Assembly (NCBI GenBank): GCA_017992055.1
Contig: JAGOPK010000015.1
Span: 71,333-135,332 of the forward strand
DNA: 64,000 nt
Source: Burkholderiaceae bacterium
GTDB taxonomy: Bacteria; Pseudomonadota; Gammaproteobacteria; Burkholderiales; Burkholderiaceae_C
Direction of reading: 5' to 3'
Position 1 is the stretch's first letter, and each line of letters begins with the position of its first letter. Positions 1 through 31,156 of the stretch are shown here, in pieces. A model generated the notes under the pieces. That model was not told the DNA's origin. It did not search any database and worked only from the letters and a program-made list of their open reading frames with translations. Position numbers and translations under genes: made by a program.

Positions 1-5983
<5,983 letters not shown>

Positions 5984-25922: not shown

Positions 25923-27536
25923 ATGAAACCCACCCTCCTGGCCGCGGCAGCGCTGCTGGCGGCCACCGCCGCCCTGGCCCCTGCGGCATCGGCCGCCGAC
26001 GCCCCCCCCTCGCTGAACTGGAGCGCCTGCCGCCTGCCGGGCCTGGCCCAGGCCGCGCGTTGCGCGGTGCTGCGCCGGCCACTGGACCCGGCGCGGCCGC
26101 AAGGCCCGCAGATCGACCTGCACATCGCCCTGCTGCCGGCCGTGGCCCGCGCCAAGGCGGCCGATCCGGTGGTCTTCCTGGCCGGCGGGCCGGGCCAGAG
26201 CGCCATCGACCTGGCGGCCACCCTGGTGGCCCGCCATGGCCGGCTGCAGCAGCGCCGCGACCTGGTGCTGGTCGACCAGCGTGGCACCGGCCGCAGCGCG
26301 CCGCTGCTGTGCCCCGACGACCGGCCACGCGCCGCGCTGATGCCCCTGGCCGAGGCCATGGCCATCGACGAGGACCAGCGCCGTCAGCGCCTGGCCGCCT
26401 GCCGCAGCGCCCTGCAGGCCCAGCCCCATGGCGATCTGCGCTTCTACACCACGCTGCTGGCCACGGTCGACCTGGAGGCCGTGCGGCTGGCCCTGGGCGC
26501 CGAGCAGCTCAACCTGATCGGCGCCAGCTACGGCACGCGCGCCGGCCTGGACTATCTGCGCCAGCATCCGCAGCGCGTGCGCCGCGCCGTGCTCGACGGC
26601 CTGGCGCCGCCGGACATGCGCCTGCACGACACGGCCGCGCGCGACAACCAGGCCGCGCTGGACGCGGTGCTGGCGGCCTGCGCCGCCGACAGCCAGGTGG
26701 TGGCCGGCCTGCCCGGCTGCGCCCAGCGCCATCCCGACCTGGCCCGGCGCCTGCAGGCCCTGCGCCAGCGCCTGCCCATCGCCACCCAGCTGCCGCATCC
26801 GATCAGCGGCCGGCCGGAGCGGGTGATGCTGCAGGCCGACCAGCTGTCGGCCTGGCTGCGCGCACCGCTGTATGCGCCGGCCCTGGCTGCCGGCCTGCCG
26901 GCGGCCATCGACGCCGCGGCCCAGCCGCCGGGGCGCGAGGACTTCGCGCCGCTGCTGGCCCTGGCCTCGTCGCTGATGGGCCCGGGCAGCCCGCCGCTGG
27001 CCACCGGCATGCACCTGTCGGTGCTCTGCGCCGAAGACCTGGGCCCCAATGCGCCGCCGGCCGACGCCGCCGACCGCGGCGCCCAGGCCGATGCGGCCAA
27101 TGCCTTCGGCGGCAGCTTCAGCCGGCTGTACCAGCAGGCCTGTGCCGACTGGCCACGCGGCACGGTGCCGGCCGATTTCTACCGCCTGCCGGCGGCCACC
27201 GCCCCGGTGTGGCTGCTGTCCGGCAGCGACGACCCGGTGACGCCGCCGCGCCATGGCGAGCGTGTGGCCCAGGCGCTGGGCTCGCGCTCGCGCCACCTGG
27301 TGGTGCAGGGCGCCGGCCATGGCCTGCTGGCCCTGGGCTGCGTGCGCGATGCGGCGCAGCGCTTCATCACCGCCGCCGACGACACCGCGGCCCTGGCCGC
27401 CACCGAGGCCCAGGGGCTGAACAGCTGCGTGGCCCGCCACCAGCGGGCCACGGCCTACCGTCCGATCGGCACGGCCCCTCCCGCGGCCGCTGCCGCCTCC
27501 ACCGCTTCCAACGCCTCCGCCGAAAGCCGCCGATGA
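25923..27536 (+). CDS. Exported alpha/beta hydrolase (TAP-like / proline iminopeptidase-like)
   Basis: 537-residue S33-type hydrolase. A signal peptide (to about AASA) is followed by VVFLAGGPGQSA (oxyanion), DLVLVDQRGTGRS, nucleophile elbow GASYGTR (Ser202), the acid in LLSGSDDPVTPP and the His in GAGHGLLALGC, in the TAP-like C-terminal arrangement. It likely cleaves small peptides, esters or amides in the periplasm. The stop overlaps the start of the ABC ATPase gene (ATGA), so it is the first gene of a three-gene operon. Confidence 0.88.
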   Translation: MKPTLLAAAALLAATAALAPAASAADAPPSLNWSACRLPGLAQAARCAVLRRPLDPARPQGPQIDLHIALLPAVARAKAADPVVFLAGGPGQSAIDLAATLVARHGRLQQRRDLVLVDQRGTGRSAPLLCPDDRPRAALMPLAEAMAIDEDQRRQRLAACRSALQAQPHGDLRFYTTLLATVDLEAVRLALGAEQLNLIGASYGTRAGLDYLRQHPQRVRRAVLDGLAPPDMRLHDTAARDNQAALDAVLAACAADSQVVAGLPGCAQRHPDLARRLQALRQRLPIATQLPHPISGRPERVMLQADQLSAWLRAPLYAPALAAGLPAAIDAAAQPPGREDFAPLLALASSLMGPGSPPLATGMHLSVLCAEDLGPNAPPADAADRGAQADAANAFGGSFSRLYQQACADWPRGTVPADFYRLPAATAPVWLLSGSDDPVTPPRHGERVAQALGSRSRHLVVQGAGHGLLALGCVRDAAQRFITAADDTAALAATEAQGLNSCVARHQRATAYRPIGTAPPAAAAASTASNASAESRR

Positions 27537-28330
27537 TCCGCGTTCAATCCGTGTCCAAGGCCTATGCCGCCGCCGACGCCGGCGGCCTGAAGCGGCTGCT
27601 GCAGTGGCGCCCCGGCGCAGGCGCTGCCGCCCGGCCCAGGGTGCAGGCGGTCAGCGACGTCAGCTTCCAGGCCGACGATGGCCGCATCACCGGCCTGCTG
27701 GGCCCGAATGGTGCCGGCAAGACCACCACGCTGCGCATGATCGCCGGCCTGACGGTGCCCGACGCCGGCCGCATCGAGGTCGCCGGCCTGGACGTGGCCG
27801 CCGCGCCCGAGGCCGTGCGCTCGCGCCTGGGCGTGCTGTCCGACAGCCGCGGCCTGTACCCGCGCCTGACCGCGCGCGAGAACATCGTCTACCACGGCCG
27901 GCTGCACGGCCTGCAGGCCGATGCCGCCCATGCCCGCGCCGAGGTGCTGGCCGAGCAGCTGGACCTGCGCAAGCTGCTGGAGCGGCGCACCGACGGCTTC
28001 AGCCAGGGCGAGCGCATGAAGACCGCGCTGGCCCGCGCCCTGGTGCACGACCCCAGCCACATCATCCTCGACGAGCCGACCAACGGCCTGGACGTGCTGG
28101 CCACGCGCAGCCTGCGCGAGGCGCTGCGCCGGCTGCGCGACGAGCAGGGCAAGTGCATCGTCTTCTGCACCCACATCATGCAGGAGGTGGAGCGGCTGTG
28201 CGACCGCGTGATCATCGTCGCCGGCGGCCGCACCGTGGCCGATGGCAGCGTCGCCCAGCTGCTGCAGCGCAGCGGCGAAAGCGACTTCGAGGCCGCCTTC
28301 GTGCGCCTGGGTTTTGGAGCCACCGCATGA
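27533..28330 (+). CDS. natA: ABC exporter ATP-binding protein (NatA-type)
   Basis: 265-residue ATPase. It has Walker A GLLGPNGAGKTTTLRMIAGL, signature variant FSQGERMKTALARAL, Walker B HIILDEPTNGLDVLA and the H-loop FCTHIMQEVERLCD. These features are typical of sodium efflux NatA proteins. Both ends overlap neighbours by four bases (hydrolase upstream, NatB-like permease downstream). It powers the permease encoded next. Confidence 0.9.
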   Translation: MIRVQSVSKAYAAADAGGLKRLLQWRPGAGAAARPRVQAVSDVSFQADDGRITGLLGPNGAGKTTTLRMIAGLTVPDAGRIEVAGLDVAAAPEAVRSRLGVLSDSRGLYPRLTARENIVYHGRLHGLQADAAHARAEVLAEQLDLRKLLERRTDGFSQGERMKTALARALVHDPSHIILDEPTNGLDVLATRSLREALRRLRDEQGKCIVFCTHIMQEVERLCDRVIIVAGGRTVADGSVAQLLQRSGESDFEAAFVRLGFGATA

Positions 28331-29526
28331 GCGCCCTGTCGTCCCCCGCCCCCCATCTGCTGGCGCGCGCCTGGCCGGTGCTGGTCAAGGAATGGCTGGA
28401 CGCGCTGCGCGACCGGCGCACGCTGCTGGTGGCGCTGCTGTCGTCGGTGGTCATCGGCCCGCTGCTGCTGTTTGCGCTGTCGATGCTGGTCGCCGACATC
28501 GAGGCCCAGGCCGAGCTGCGCGAGGTCCATGTGCAGGGCCTGGAGCAGGCGCCGACGCTGGCCAACTACCTGGCGCGCCAGGGCCGGCAGATCGTGGCGG
28601 CGCCGGCCGACCCGGCCCGCGCCCTGGCCAACCGCAGCCTGGGCCATGCGGTGCTGGTGGTGCCGCCCGACTTCGAGCGCGACCTCGCCGACGGCCTGCC
28701 GCCACGGGTGCAACTGCTGACCGCCAGCGGCAATGCCCGCGCCCAGACCAGCGCCAACCAGCTGCAGCAGCTGCTGGCCGGCTTCAACCAGGAGCAGGCC
28801 ACGCTGCGCCTGACGCACCGCGGCGTGCCGCCGCCGGTGCTGCAGGCGGTGCGCGTGGACGAGCAGGACATGGCCGATGCGCGCCAGCGCTCGGCGCAGT
28901 TCATGAAGTCGCTGCCGGTGTTCGTGCTGATGGCCGTGGTCTATGGCGCGCTGGCCGCGGCCCTGGATGCCACCGCCGGCGAGCGCGAGCGCGGCACGCT
29001 CGAGCCGCTGCTGCTGACGCCGGCGCCGCGCGGCGCCCTGGTGCTGGGCAAATGGGCGGCGGTGGCCGCGCTGGCCATGGGCATTGCCGTGCTGTCCTGC
29101 CTGAGCTTCCTGCCCGGCCAGTGGCTGCTGCGCAGCGAGACGCTGGCGGCGATGTTCCAGTTCGGCCTGCGCGAGGCCGGCCTGTTCCTGGCCCTGCTGC
29201 TGCCGCTGGCCGCGGCACTGGCGGCGCTGCTGATGGCCGTGGCCCAGCGCTGCCGCACCGTCAAGGAAGCCCAGGCCAGCGCCACCGTGGTGGTGCTGGC
29301 GGTGTCGCTGGTGCCGATGGTGGCGCTGTTCAACCTGGGTGGTGAGCGGCCCTGGCAGCTGTGGGTGCCGGCCCTGGCCCAGGTGACGCTGATGCAGCGC
29401 GTGCTGGACGGCGAGGCCATCGCCGCGCTGGACCTGCTGGGCCCGCTGGCGGTGGCCGCCCTGCTCACCGCCGTCTGCCTGGCCGACCTGGCGCGGCAGC
29501 TGCGCCGCGCCGCCGCCGGCCACTGA
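28327..29526 (+). CDS. natB: ABC transporter permease (NatB-type)
   Basis: 399-residue inner-membrane permease of the ABC-2 type. One N-terminal membrane helix (LLVALLSSVVIGPLLLFALSML) is followed by an extracytoplasmic domain (about residues 60-190), then five or six helices, with the conserved GERERGTLEPLLLTPAPRGALVLGKW. It partners the NatA-like ATPase; NatAB exports sodium in Bacillus, but the substrate here is only inferred. The coupled periplasmic hydrolase upstream suggests a link with peptide or envelope chemistry. Confidence 0.88.
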   Translation: MSALSSPAPHLLARAWPVLVKEWLDALRDRRTLLVALLSSVVIGPLLLFALSMLVADIEAQAELREVHVQGLEQAPTLANYLARQGRQIVAAPADPARALANRSLGHAVLVVPPDFERDLADGLPPRVQLLTASGNARAQTSANQLQQLLAGFNQEQATLRLTHRGVPPPVLQAVRVDEQDMADARQRSAQFMKSLPVFVLMAVVYGALAAALDATAGERERGTLEPLLLTPAPRGALVLGKWAAVAALAMGIAVLSCLSFLPGQWLLRSETLAAMFQFGLREAGLFLALLLPLAAALAALLMAVAQRCRTVKEAQASATVVVLAVSLVPMVALFNLGGERPWQLWVPALAQVTLMQRVLDGEAIAALDLLGPLAVAALLTAVCLADLARQLRRAAAGH

Positions 29527-29530
29527 GCGA

Positions 29531-30007
29531 TCAGTGGGCCAGCGCCCGCTGCAGCGCGGCCTGGCGGCTGGGCGGTGGCGCAAGCGGCGACGCCGAGGGC
29601 GGCACCACGGTCGGCCGGCTGGCATCGCCGACCGCACGGCCGACCTCGTCCTGCCACGGCAGGCTGCGCAGCAGCACGTTCAGGTGCAGCGCGGCCTGGG
29701 CAGATGTGAGCATTTCGCCACTGCCATCGACCAGACGCAGATTGGTCACCACACCCATGGGGTCGGCCATGGCATAAACGCCATCCGACAGTTCCACCCA
29801 GTCCCAGGCCATCGCCGCTTCGCCATCGTCGCATTGCGCTGCCCACAGCGTCTGCCCGACCACCCGCGAAGCCGCCGAGATTCCAGGTTGGGTGATCTGT
29901 GTACACAAATGCTGCAACGGTAACGAAACCTGGCCGCCAACCTGCCACAATAACGGCGGCCAGGCACGCACGGTCCAGGGGGGGCAATGCGCTTGCGAGT
30001 AGTACAC
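29531..30007 (-). CDS. RsaM-like (DUF4902) protein next to a LuxR regulator
   Basis: 158-residue protein starting at a GTG with GGAG eight bases upstream. The core VGQTLWAAQ, AMAWDWVELSDGV, GVVTNLRLVD and LLRSLPWQDEV, with spaced tryptophans, resembles the DUF4902/RsaM family that tunes acyl-homoserine-lactone quorum sensing in Burkholderia and Pseudomonas. The C-terminus is a Pro/Ser-rich tail. It is divergent from a luxR-type gene, as expected for RsaM. The family assignment is from memory of the motif pattern and is moderate. Confidence 0.6.
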   Translation of the reverse strand: MYYSQAHCPPWTVRAWPPLLWQVGGQVSLPLQHLCTQITQPGISAASRVVGQTLWAAQCDDGEAAMAWDWVELSDGVYAMADPMGVVTNLRLVDGSGEMLTSAQAALHLNVLLRSLPWQDEVGRAVGDASRPTVVPPSASPLAPPPSRQAALQRALAH

Positions 30008-30050: not shown

Positions 30051-30125
30051 CAACGGGCATCGCATGAAAACATGTAAACCCTTGCAGGGGCTCTTCGCGG
30101 CAGACTGCTGAGGTTGTGTTCGTTC

Positions 30126-30845
30126 ATGCTGCAAGGGGATTACGCCGCGGTATTGCAGACTGGAACTCGGGATGAGTTCCGGTCGGAAGTCGTGCGTTTT
30201 GCCCAGAGCCTGGGCTTCGACACGGTGTCGGCGATGTCGGTGGTCGACCATGGCGTGGGCCGCTCGGACTTCGTGCTGATCGACAACACGCCCCAGGGCT
30301 ACACCGACGCCTTCCACGACACCGACAGCATGCGCCGCGATCCGGTGATGCAGCACTGCCGCCGGCATTCCATGCCCATCATCTGGAACCAGGCCACCTA
30401 CACCGAGGCCGGCCTGGGCGAGCTGTGGGAGGAGCAGGCGCGCTTCGGCTACTGCACCGGCATCGCCATGGCCCTGCACCTGCCCGAGGGCCGGCACTTT
30501 GCGCTGGGCGTCGAGCGCTCGCAGCCCCTGCCCAGCGACCGCGTGGAGCTGATGCGCCTGGTGGCCGACCTGCAGCTGTTTGCGGTGATGGCCCAGGACG
30601 CCGCCGCCCGCGTGCTGGTGCCCGAGCCCAGCAGCGGCCCGTCCGACCGGCCGGTGCTGACGCCGCGTGAGCTGGAGGTGCTGCGCTGGACCATGGAAGG
30701 CAAGACCGCCTGGGAGGTGGGCACCATCTTGGGCATCAGCGAGCGCACGGCGGTGCTGCATGTCAACAATGCCATGCACAAGCTGCAGTGCAGCAGCAAG
30801 CACCAGGCGGTGCTGAAGGCCTTGCGCCTGGGCCTGATCCATTGA
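30126..30845 (+). CDS. LuxR family transcriptional regulator with autoinducer-binding domain (solo)
   Basis: 239-residue regulator. The N-terminal autoinducer-binding domain (about 10-165) keeps RRDPVMQH (the Asp-Pro pair contacting acyl-homoserine lactone) and IIWNQ (Trp), while the two upstream aromatic positions are Tyr and Phe. The C-terminal GerE/LuxR helix-turn-helix has LTPRELEVLRWTMEGKTAWEVGTILGISERTAVLHVNNAMHKL. The ATG at 30126 is preferred over an in-frame TTG at 30114. No luxI gene is present in the window. A lux-box-like sequence lies 35 bp downstream of its stop. Confidence 0.92.
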   Translation: MLQGDYAAVLQTGTRDEFRSEVVRFAQSLGFDTVSAMSVVDHGVGRSDFVLIDNTPQGYTDAFHDTDSMRRDPVMQHCRRHSMPIIWNQATYTEAGLGELWEEQARFGYCTGIAMALHLPEGRHFALGVERSQPLPSDRVELMRLVADLQLFAVMAQDAAARVLVPEPSSGPSDRPVLTPRELEVLRWTMEGKTAWEVGTILGISERTAVLHVNNAMHKLQCSSKHQAVLKALRLGLIH

Positions 30846-30880: not shown

Positions 30881-30900
30881 ACCTGTAAGACTTGACAGTT
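30881..30900 (+). promoter_or_regulatory. lux-box-like LuxR binding site
   Basis: ACCTGTAAGACTTGACAGTT is a 20-bp imperfect dyad with ACCTGT, eight spacer bases and ACAGTT, close to the ACCTGT-N8-ACAGGT form of lux/las boxes. About 23 bases further is a plausible -10 (AAATAT, 30924-30929), so the box would sit near -42, the usual activating position. It lies between luxR and the 19-codon gene. Confidence 0.7.
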
Positions 30901-30936
30901 CCAGGATTTGCTCTGGATTGGTGAAATATGTCTCAA

Positions 30937-30960
30937 GCGCAAAGCAAAAAACGTTTGCGC
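30937..30960 (+). other. Stem-loop in the leader of the 19-codon gene
   Basis: GCGCAAA (30937-30943) and TTTGCGC (30954-30960) form a 7-bp perfect stem with a 10-base A-rich loop. It lies 14 bases upstream of the AGGAG and could modulate translation or message stability. Its role is unknown. Confidence 0.5.
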
Positions 30961-30985
30961 GAATCACCAAACCCAGGAGTAGCTC

Positions 30986-31045
30986 ATGCAAGCCGTCAAG
31001 ACCGTCTCGACCCGTCCGGTTCAGCTGCCCCGCGCCGGCTGGTAA
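30986..31045 (+). CDS. 19-residue peptide gene downstream of a lux box
   Basis: The reading frame encodes MQAVKTVSTRPVQLPRAGW followed by TAA. AGGAG is placed six bases before the ATG, which is ideal. It is the only well-initiated frame on a predicted transcript running from just after the lux box to the strong terminator at 31101-31132. The peptide is basic, has two prolines and ends in Gly-Trp. It has no signal sequence and no membrane segment. It could be a secreted or processed signal, a leader peptide, or part of a regulatory RNA. I do not recognise it; expression is inferred. Confidence 0.6.
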   Translation: MQAVKTVSTRPVQLPRAGW

Positions 31046-31100
31046 ACCGAATCCGCGCAGGGTGCGGCAGGCGAATCCAGCCCAGCCGCGCCGGAATGCC

Positions 31101-31132
31101 AAAGGGGGTCCGACGGACCCCCTTTCGTTTTT
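31101..31132 (+). terminator. Strong rho-independent terminator
   Basis: An 11-bp perfect stem (AAAGGGGGTCC / GGACCCCCTTT) with a GAC loop is followed by CGTTTTT. It closes the short transcript carrying the 19-codon gene and separates it from the minus-strand gene at 31157. Confidence 0.9.
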
Positions 31133-31156
31133 GGGTCGGGGCTTTTCGCGGTGGTT

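Follow-up and report, generated by a model that had tools for sequence, protein, structure and literature searches.

Our comparative analysis of a 64,000-nucleotide stretch of DNA from a Burkholderiaceae bacterium (the window) suggests an undescribed form of signaling, in which a LuxR-type receptor recognizes a genetically encoded peptide. LuxR-type proteins are the textbook receptors of small-molecule quorum sensing in Gram-negative bacteria. Within about 1 kb, the window carries a luxR gene, an exact lux box, a ribosome-binding site, a 19-codon open reading frame, and a terminator (Table 1), and comparison of about 100 relatives suggests that the peptide's tail has co-evolved with the receptor pocket. 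We consider it highly probable that this peptide is the ribosomally made ligand of LuxR, encoded in luxI's place, and that it activates its own lux box. Only slightly less confidently, we propose that a family-wide class of LuxR proteins has exchanged acyl-homoserine lactones (AHLs) for gene-encoded peptides, with peptide and pocket co-diversifying into many specificities; that several lineages, including the window's, have lost leader and exporter, leaving a tiny gene for an intracellular ligand; and that distant paralogues are likewise paired with leaderless peptides of the [LFI]PxxG type, down to 9 codons.

An earlier sequence-only reading of this locus, which as a whole is partly supported, had described a lux-box-driven transcript for a small peptide beside a solo LuxR and an RsaM-like protein. 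The lux box, the AGGAG site ahead of the ATG, the 19-codon frame, and the 11-bp terminator stem with its T-run were all found again, and judged from gene order the peptide gene does occupy luxI's place under a lux box. The -10 element had been misplaced: the element conserved across 108 loci is not AAATAT but an extended -10, whose position would put the transcript start within a base or so of the earlier guess near 30933. The ATG given in Table 1 is a possible start of luxR. The RsaM-like neighbor stood up to a profile comparison, in which profile A1 matched BcRsaM (BCAM1869, PDB 4o2h) with an E-value of 2.9e-4; the single sequence reached 0.12 against the same structure, and neither Pfam nor NCBIfam gave a match to the protein. 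Sites of the type CTG-N10-CAG face rsaM in 30 of 46 loci, and the window's own site, which has CAT, misses the regular expression. These rsaM-facing sites look like a second, different type of box (CCTGACAAGGTTTACAGCT-like), so that the circuit may also control its own damper.

Table 1. Features of the locus, in window coordinates.
Feature	Position	Strand	Basis
S33/TAP-like alpha/beta hydrolase, possible secreted peptidase; role in the system conjectural	25923..27536	+	PF00561, PF08386
ABC ATPase and ABC-2 permease, candidate alternative exporter (conjecture)	27533..29526	+	PF00005, PF12679, PF12698
rsaM-like gene (start approximate), transcribed divergently from luxR	29531..30007	-	profile match to PDB 4o2h
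Degenerate lux-box-like site CCCTGCAAGGGTTTACATG facing rsaM	30071..30089	-	sequence
luxR, autoinducer-binding domain and LuxR-type HTH; proposed peptide receptor	30126..30845	+	PF03472 E 9.4e-26, PF00196 E 3.3e-17
Pocket residue of LuxR equivalent to LasR Ala70, here Met	codon 30330-30332	+	
Lux box ACCTGTAAGACTTGACAGTT, found once in the genome	30881..30900	+	sequence
Extended -10 TGgTGAAAT; putative transcript start near 30934	30919..30927	+	TGnTnnAAT at box+36..44, nearly all 108 loci
5' UTR stem-loop, 7 bp, in the window not beyond chance	30937..30960	+	z -0.23
RBS AGGAG	30975..30979	+	sequence
Peptide gene MQAVKTVSTRPVQLPRAGW with stop, leaderless family member	30986..31045	+	sequence and family comparison
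Codons of the conserved core LPRAGW	31025..31042	+	family comparison
Intrinsic terminator, 11-bp stem (31101-31125) and T-run	31101..31135	+	sequence

When the 19-mer alone was searched against 200 genomes of the family, only the window gave a meaningful match (next E-value 0.076), and the peptide family was therefore reached through luxR rather than through peptide similarity. The window luxR matched 54 of the 200 family genomes at E<=1e-30; at E<=1e-40, a window-type LuxR was found in only the window's own genome among 369 genomes of the class. The best locus from 45 of the 54 genomes, together with the window, formed a first set of 46, for which peptide starts were chosen by eye from the list of open reading frames. 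In every one of the 46, a box-like site lies 4-95 bp past the luxR stop (0-2 mismatches in 43 loci; 5, 5, and 6 in G154, G028, and G043), and a small open reading frame starts 82-103 bp past the box. Forty-one of these peptides end in Trp, and when 45 of them, all but that of G195, are aligned, the core Pro and Trp do not vary. A second scan added the best 80 of 172 loci; after removal of 17 rows with short, stop-containing, or duplicate LuxR sequences and of L215, which yields no peptide because its contig ends, 108 distinct loci with a box-like site and a small peptide frame remained. The scan reached Rubrivivax, Roseateles, Rhizobacter, Ideonella, Methylibium, Aquabacterium, Piscinibacter, Mitsuaria, Pelomonas, Paucibacter, and metagenome-assembled genomes (MAGs). 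Where a locus had several open frames, ATG frames with a P..W motif were preferred, and the peptides of L169, L213, and L170 were set by hand, the last being read from CTG. The motif P-x3/4-W occurs in 100 of the 108 peptides; 86 end in Trp, and 42 carry at least two copies of the core, identical to each other in 37.

The alignments used below differ slightly in membership: A2 is without L112 and L137, whose LuxR is cut, and without L136, which has an internal stop; A3 is without G195 (L095); the structure alignment A4 holds 52 of the 80 named loci and the window; and the 44-row LuxR alignment behind the motif reading includes G043 with its stop. That stop, in L136 (G043), is a single internal TAG in the luxR ortholog of a draft genome, and the peptide frame beside it is still open. 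Two precursors (L161 and L166) each carry two different cores (PHRTW/PHGSW and PGGNW/PGKSW), perhaps two signals per gene. Three genomes (G096, G066, and G197, with loci L134, L128, and L102) have three to four extra LuxR paralogues and one exact box each; perhaps these are several receptors for one peptide family.

Within the window's 5.9-Mb genome, the lux box core of 17 bases is found once; with up to three mismatches, there are 20 matches genome-wide versus 31 for a reversed control pattern, so that this genome has no second clear box. Since the peptide's own box is the only strong one, the box search shows no downstream output. The exact pattern was found in 32 of the 200 family genomes, once in each and always just after the orthologous luxR, and the reversed control in none of the 200; among the 369 genomes of the class, the exact box was found in only one genome (G400) besides the window's. 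For the 108 loci, the best box-like site was taken per locus, which means that some site is always reported, and this site has at most four mismatches to the consensus in 107 and five in G154. At 36 to 44 positions from the start of the box follows TGnTnnAAT, each fixed base of which is present in at least 106 of the 108 loci except the first T (101), and the ATG lies 82-111 bp from the box start. The placement of the -10 element puts the box near -43. Class II LuxR promoters likewise have their box near this position. A simple sigma-70 scan returned no promoter at the peptide gene, as is expected if LuxR is needed. From sequence alone, the box would feed back on the signal gene itself.

Is the peptide, rather than the transcript, the product of this gene? 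A short RNA had been offered as the alternative to the peptide, and a short transcript with a terminator and a 5' hairpin would suit a regulatory RNA whose reading frame is incidental. The codons point the other way. In the 84 loci whose peptides end PxxxW*, the Pro codon varies among CCC (48), CCG (30), and CCT (6), and a Gly before the Trp between GGC (34) and GGT (6), with TGG in all 84. In 10 close pairs of equal length, the core has five synonymous and no nonsynonymous codon differences, versus 56 and 33 in the rest of the peptide; the core of one pair (G183/G078) misses the PxxxW expression and was counted with the rest. Three further close pairs of unequal length were left out of this count; one of these has the core PKNTW in one member and PKSGW in the other. 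Selection acts on the frame at the protein level. In addition, RBS and ATG keep a constant place, and amino acid motifs recur in tandem. The 7-bp stem-loop that had been described is present but folds no better than shuffled sequences (z -0.23), and Rfam at gathering scores gave zero matches within the window. In the main, the codon comparison already refutes the regulatory-RNA reading, which we rejected on the synonymous codon use in the core and on the hairpin and to which we give next to no weight.

The receptors themselves have lost most of their AHL contacts. Sensors of AHLs carry the motif WYDPWG (W57, Y61, D70, P71, W85, and G113 in TraR; PMC4414361, in excerpt). The window LuxR reads YFDPWG, and the first position of the motif is Trp in only six of the 108 loci. 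In the same loci, the equivalent of LasR Tyr56 is Thr, Ala, or Cys (96), that of Trp60 is Tyr or Phe (100), that of Ser129 is Gly (106), that of Ala105 is Gln (104), and that of Leu125 is His (108); the equivalents of Asp73 and Trp88 are kept in 106 and 108. The predicted model of the window LuxR (mean pLDDT 86.7, pTM 0.64) would fold like QscR, SdiA, LasR, and RhlR, and its best PDB matches are QscR, SdiA, and LasR. A luxI profile (PF00765) has no match anywhere in the window's genome; the same search gave matches above its cut-off in 22 of the 200 family genomes and in none of 14 control genomes. The receptor is thus a LuxR solo, as had been claimed. Matches to PF00765 occur in six of the 46 genomes (four of them strong), and none adjoins the orthologous luxR. 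One genome from another family of the class (G400) has the window's box sequence between luxR and a true luxI (PF00765, E 8.4e-36), the ATG of luxI lies 82 bp past the box start, and the LuxR carries Trp, Tyr, Ala, and Ser at the equivalents of LasR 60, 64, 105, and 129. It is possible that this locus (L247) pictures the state before the swap of luxI for a peptide gene.

The strongest indication of a ligand comes from covariation. Across 77 loci with all four proteins, we compared each variable position of the core with 978 columns that vary in LuxR, RsaM, HlyD, or the exporter. The residue before the Trp (-1) is tied to a single LuxR column, the equivalent of LasR Ala70 (residue 68 of the 238-residue sequence used), with a z of 15.9; the next column, LasR Tyr64, is also in LuxR (7.8), and the best column outside LuxR scores 7.2. 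Taken together, the pocket columns show no enrichment for -1 (p 0.74), the signal being one column. In 97 PxxxW loci, Thr at -1 goes with a pocket Gly in 28 of 30 cases and with Ser in the other two, and Gly at -1 goes with a pocket Gly in none of 52. Twenty loci outside the scan behave alike, with pocket Gly in five of six Thr cases (Ser in the sixth) and in none of 12 Gly cases. The match seems to be mostly steric, a larger peptide residue going with a smaller pocket residue, and the rule is not strict: Gly cores also occur with Ala, Ser, and Cys, and Arg cores mostly with Ala.

All of these genes share one locus and are passed on as a unit, and shared ancestry alone could in principle tie LuxR to the peptide. 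Columns of the neighboring genes stay at or below the 7.2 just given. On the tree of the 77 loci, the -1 trait changes at least 16 times (20.65 for random labels), and in simulations at five rates, with 2000 traits for each rate, none reached the observed correlation. A tree built from the other three proteins has 16 independent Gly/Thr pairs, of which 15 agree: the Thr partner has a pocket Gly, and its Gly counterpart has something larger. The 16th pairs Ser with Ala. A LuxR tree without the tested column yields 18 pairs, in which the Thr partner has Gly in 16 and Ser (against Trp) in two. Common descent as the sole cause is, on these counts, highly improbable.

For the two residues farther from the Trp, 96 loci were compared: -2 tracks LasR 64 and 56, and -3 tracks LasR 101, Asn going with Lys in nine of 11 cases and Lys or Arg with Leu, Ile, Met, or Val in 65 of 65. 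The RsaM maxima for -2 and -3 are lower (7.7 and 7.3 versus 11.8 and 9.6 for LuxR). Four of the five top LuxR columns are pocket positions (p 1.5e-4), and -3 also scores with the non-pocket columns LasR 63 and 20 (9.3 and 8.6); the list of LasR pocket residues comes from a docking study (PMC10221562, in excerpt). In the 77-locus scan, columns of the PCAT exporter top both -2 and -3 (9.2 and 8.2) over the best LuxR columns (9.1 and 7.3), so that -1 alone clearly exceeds all controls. In eight loci (L157, L169, L191, L193, L150, L186, L213, and L095), the core lacks Trp, as in LPRVS, LPRVG, and LPRIGGL; these loci may form one clade. They are best separated by three LuxR columns (LasR 40, 50, and 76), all of which are on the pocket list and hint at a Trp subpocket. 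We had considered the Trp-less peptide of G195 a damaged copy and dropped this idea, the eight loci forming a variant group.

Because the core covaries with the ligand pocket, the peptide is probably the ligand of the adjoining LuxR. Of the two roles that the sequence-only reading had left side by side, covariation favors a peptide signal and makes an unusual quorum output less likely. Covariation indicates contact or a matched fit and carries no sign, and the peptide might be matched to LuxR as an anti-activator or folding partner, with a negative or homeostatic effect and another molecule as the true inducer. Anti-activator complexes of LuxR proteins exist, and the fold matches of our model include, judged by title, a LasR-Aqs1 structure and a quorum-sensing anti-activation complex (2q0o); a window form without a C39 exporter would also fit. 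Most of the fit lies in positions of the ligand pocket (LasR 70, 64, 56, and 101), and leader, exporter, and tandem cores suit a released signal, so that we hold an inhibitory partner to be unlikely and retain the inducing ligand as the preferred reading.

Most relatives also encode a candidate means of release. In 37 of the 46 loci, the shared gene clusters include both an HlyD-type protein and an ABC transporter, with a looser arrangement in two of these loci (G096 and G066); in representative relatives, these two proteins match PF13437 and PF03412/PF00664/PF00005, respectively, with an E-value of 1e-35 for PF03412 in one exporter. Beyond the exporter lie genes that we take, by eye, to be mnmG, rsmG, and parA. 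Precursor leaders follow the pattern ..LD..L..V.GG, and the mature part past the GG can be as short as 6-7 residues (LPKATW, APGRRW, SPFHRW). A simple regular expression finds a GG leader in 87 of the 88 loci that have both exporter genes and in eight of the other 20 (Fisher 5e-10). The 12 leaderless loci, which include the window, have cores such as LPRAGW, LPRNGW, and LPKQGW or repeats (three PKSGW, seven AGPRGTW). A C39 peptidase gave no match in nine of the 12 leaderless genomes, several of which are MAGs of untold completeness, and matches occur in G143 and in the genomes of L170 (weak) and L187. The window peptide has no GG leader, and its genome has no C39 match in a search that was positive in eight of 14 control genomes, which makes cell-cell signaling in this species doubtful. 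The core has thus outlasted its export machine. In two loci (L110 and L122, from G154 and G028), a short stand-alone C39-like frame lies 336-810 and 373-802 bp past the luxR stop and follows a precursor with four PSPKGTW repeats; by eye, its catalytic-Cys stretch ECGLAC is apparently lost.

A GG leader with a C39 exporter and an HlyD adaptor is typical of class II bacteriocins and microcins. Together with the luxI-type matches in six genomes, this would agree with a quorum-regulated bacteriocin or RiPP, in which an AHL or a foreign signal sensed by LuxR turns on production of an antimicrobial peptide for export. One would expect no covariation between such an output and the receptor pocket, itself mostly stripped of AHL contacts. 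Cores that shrink to six residues past the GG, a distant product of only nine residues, and leaderless loci that retain the core speak against it as well. No modification gene was recognized by eye in the 40 largest shared clusters of open reading frames of at least 110 amino acids, a threshold that smaller immunity genes would escape; one precursor matched TIGR04497 (GRASP_targ_2) below the cut-off (E 0.0088). We regard an antimicrobial role as decidedly unlikely and return to the peptide as ligand.

The genes upstream of luxR are also conserved. Among 60 named loci whose sequence reaches far enough, hydrolase, ABC ATPase, and ABC-2 permease all occur there in 52 (ATPase and permease in 53 each, hydrolase in 52); of the 11 among these that lack the C39 exporter, 10 have all three. 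Such conservation may be mere synteny, or it may reflect a second route of export and peptide cleavage. The window's hydrolase has a weak match, far under the cut-off, to a prolyl aminopeptidase model.

More remote LuxR homologs of the same family show a related arrangement. In 17 such loci (L230-L246), peptides were recognized by eye, and 14 have a short open reading frame downstream of a luxR whose product is 40-49% identical. Thirteen of these frames are tiny and leaderless and lie 94-205 bp past luxR; the remaining one (L242) has a GG leader. Examples are MICLPRVGW, with nine residues, MTQSHSIAPAFPRVGF, MSQAAIAVRTSFPRTGW, and MKLIDFVCELLGLPKLGG, and one locus has a second frame, MTSFPRVGF. 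The leaderless peptides end in the [LFI]PxxG type, and some of the genomes carry the main system too. By eye, no short frame was recognized in three of the 17 (L235, L241, and L244), the last of which is a luxR adjoining luxI, with an AHL-type pocket, in G132.

We propose the following model. The core of the window peptide (LPRAGW) would bind LuxR, and the complex would activate the single strong lux box and yield more peptide, an autoinduction loop that the divergent RsaM-like protein, by analogy, probably damps. In most relatives, the adjoining C39 ABC transporter, together with the HlyD adaptor, would process the GG-leader precursor and carry its product out of the cell; this short peptide (down to xPxxxW) would then be taken up again and serve as a pheromone. 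In the window's lineage, where leader and C39 exporter are gone, the 19-mer or a fragment of it probably reaches LuxR inside the producing cell; alternatively, it may leave by another route, such as the conserved upstream ABC transporter. Binding, activation rather than inhibition, processing, transport, re-uptake, and physiological output are steps that we infer from comparing sequences. If this reading is true, the exporter-bearing relatives have a peptide quorum system, and the window has an intracellular loop or another exit. A branch whose signal and receptor genes adjoin, and in which natural peptide-pocket pairs number in the dozens, would unite the two textbook worlds of quorum sensing; many LuxR solos would gain a testable ligand, and a ready set of peptide-receptor pairs, maybe orthogonal, would be at hand. 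It would also illustrate that a very short and easily missed gene can hold the key to a circuit.

What is the relation of this system to known ones? In the open-licence literature, a scope that lacks preprints and most subscription papers, we found no published account of a LuxR with an adjoining gene for a peptide ligand, and its novelty is provisional for that reason. With AHL quorum sensing by LuxI and LuxR, including the luxR-rsaM-luxI loci of Burkholderia (PMC4357305 and PMC10134790, in excerpt), the window shares the LuxR fold, the lux box, and the rsaM neighbor; it differs in having a ribosomal peptide gene for luxI, no luxI detected, and YFDPWG for WYDPWG. The plant-associated solos PipR and OryR are LuxR homologs that, according to PMC4981722, use no AHL and respond to peptides or a peptide-like plant signal imported by an ABC transporter. 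Genes for a proline iminopeptidase and a peptide transporter flank solos of this subfamily; an S33-type hydrolase and an ABC transporter also lie some 0.6-4 kb upstream in the window, and they are neither a clear PipA nor a clear peptide importer. Unlike PipR and OryR, whose ligands come from outside, the window's receptor has the peptide encoded beside it, in a gene with a lux box, and at the positions of their motif W57M/Y61W (PMC4414361, in excerpt) it has Tyr and Phe. The solos PluR and PauR of Photorhabdus also combine a changed WYDPWG motif with a non-AHL signal, which in the same excerpt is an alpha-pyrone or a dialkylresorcinol, in contrast to a gene-encoded peptide here.

Peptide systems offer the other half of the comparison. 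RRNPP receptors are of the TPR type. Like the window, the RRNPP systems of Firmicutes have a short, linear, gene-encoded peptide, a receptor that is presumed to be cytoplasmic in both, and adjoining genes (PMC13220807, in excerpt); the differences are the LuxR fold of the window receptor, without TPR, the Gram-negative host, and export by C39 transporters in the relatives. These features of the relatives recall a further group. Peptides with a GG leader and PCAT exporters include bacteriocins and pheromones of the ComC type. The relatives' precursors and exporter are alike in kind, the window form has neither, and reception would here be by LuxR rather than by a membrane kinase.
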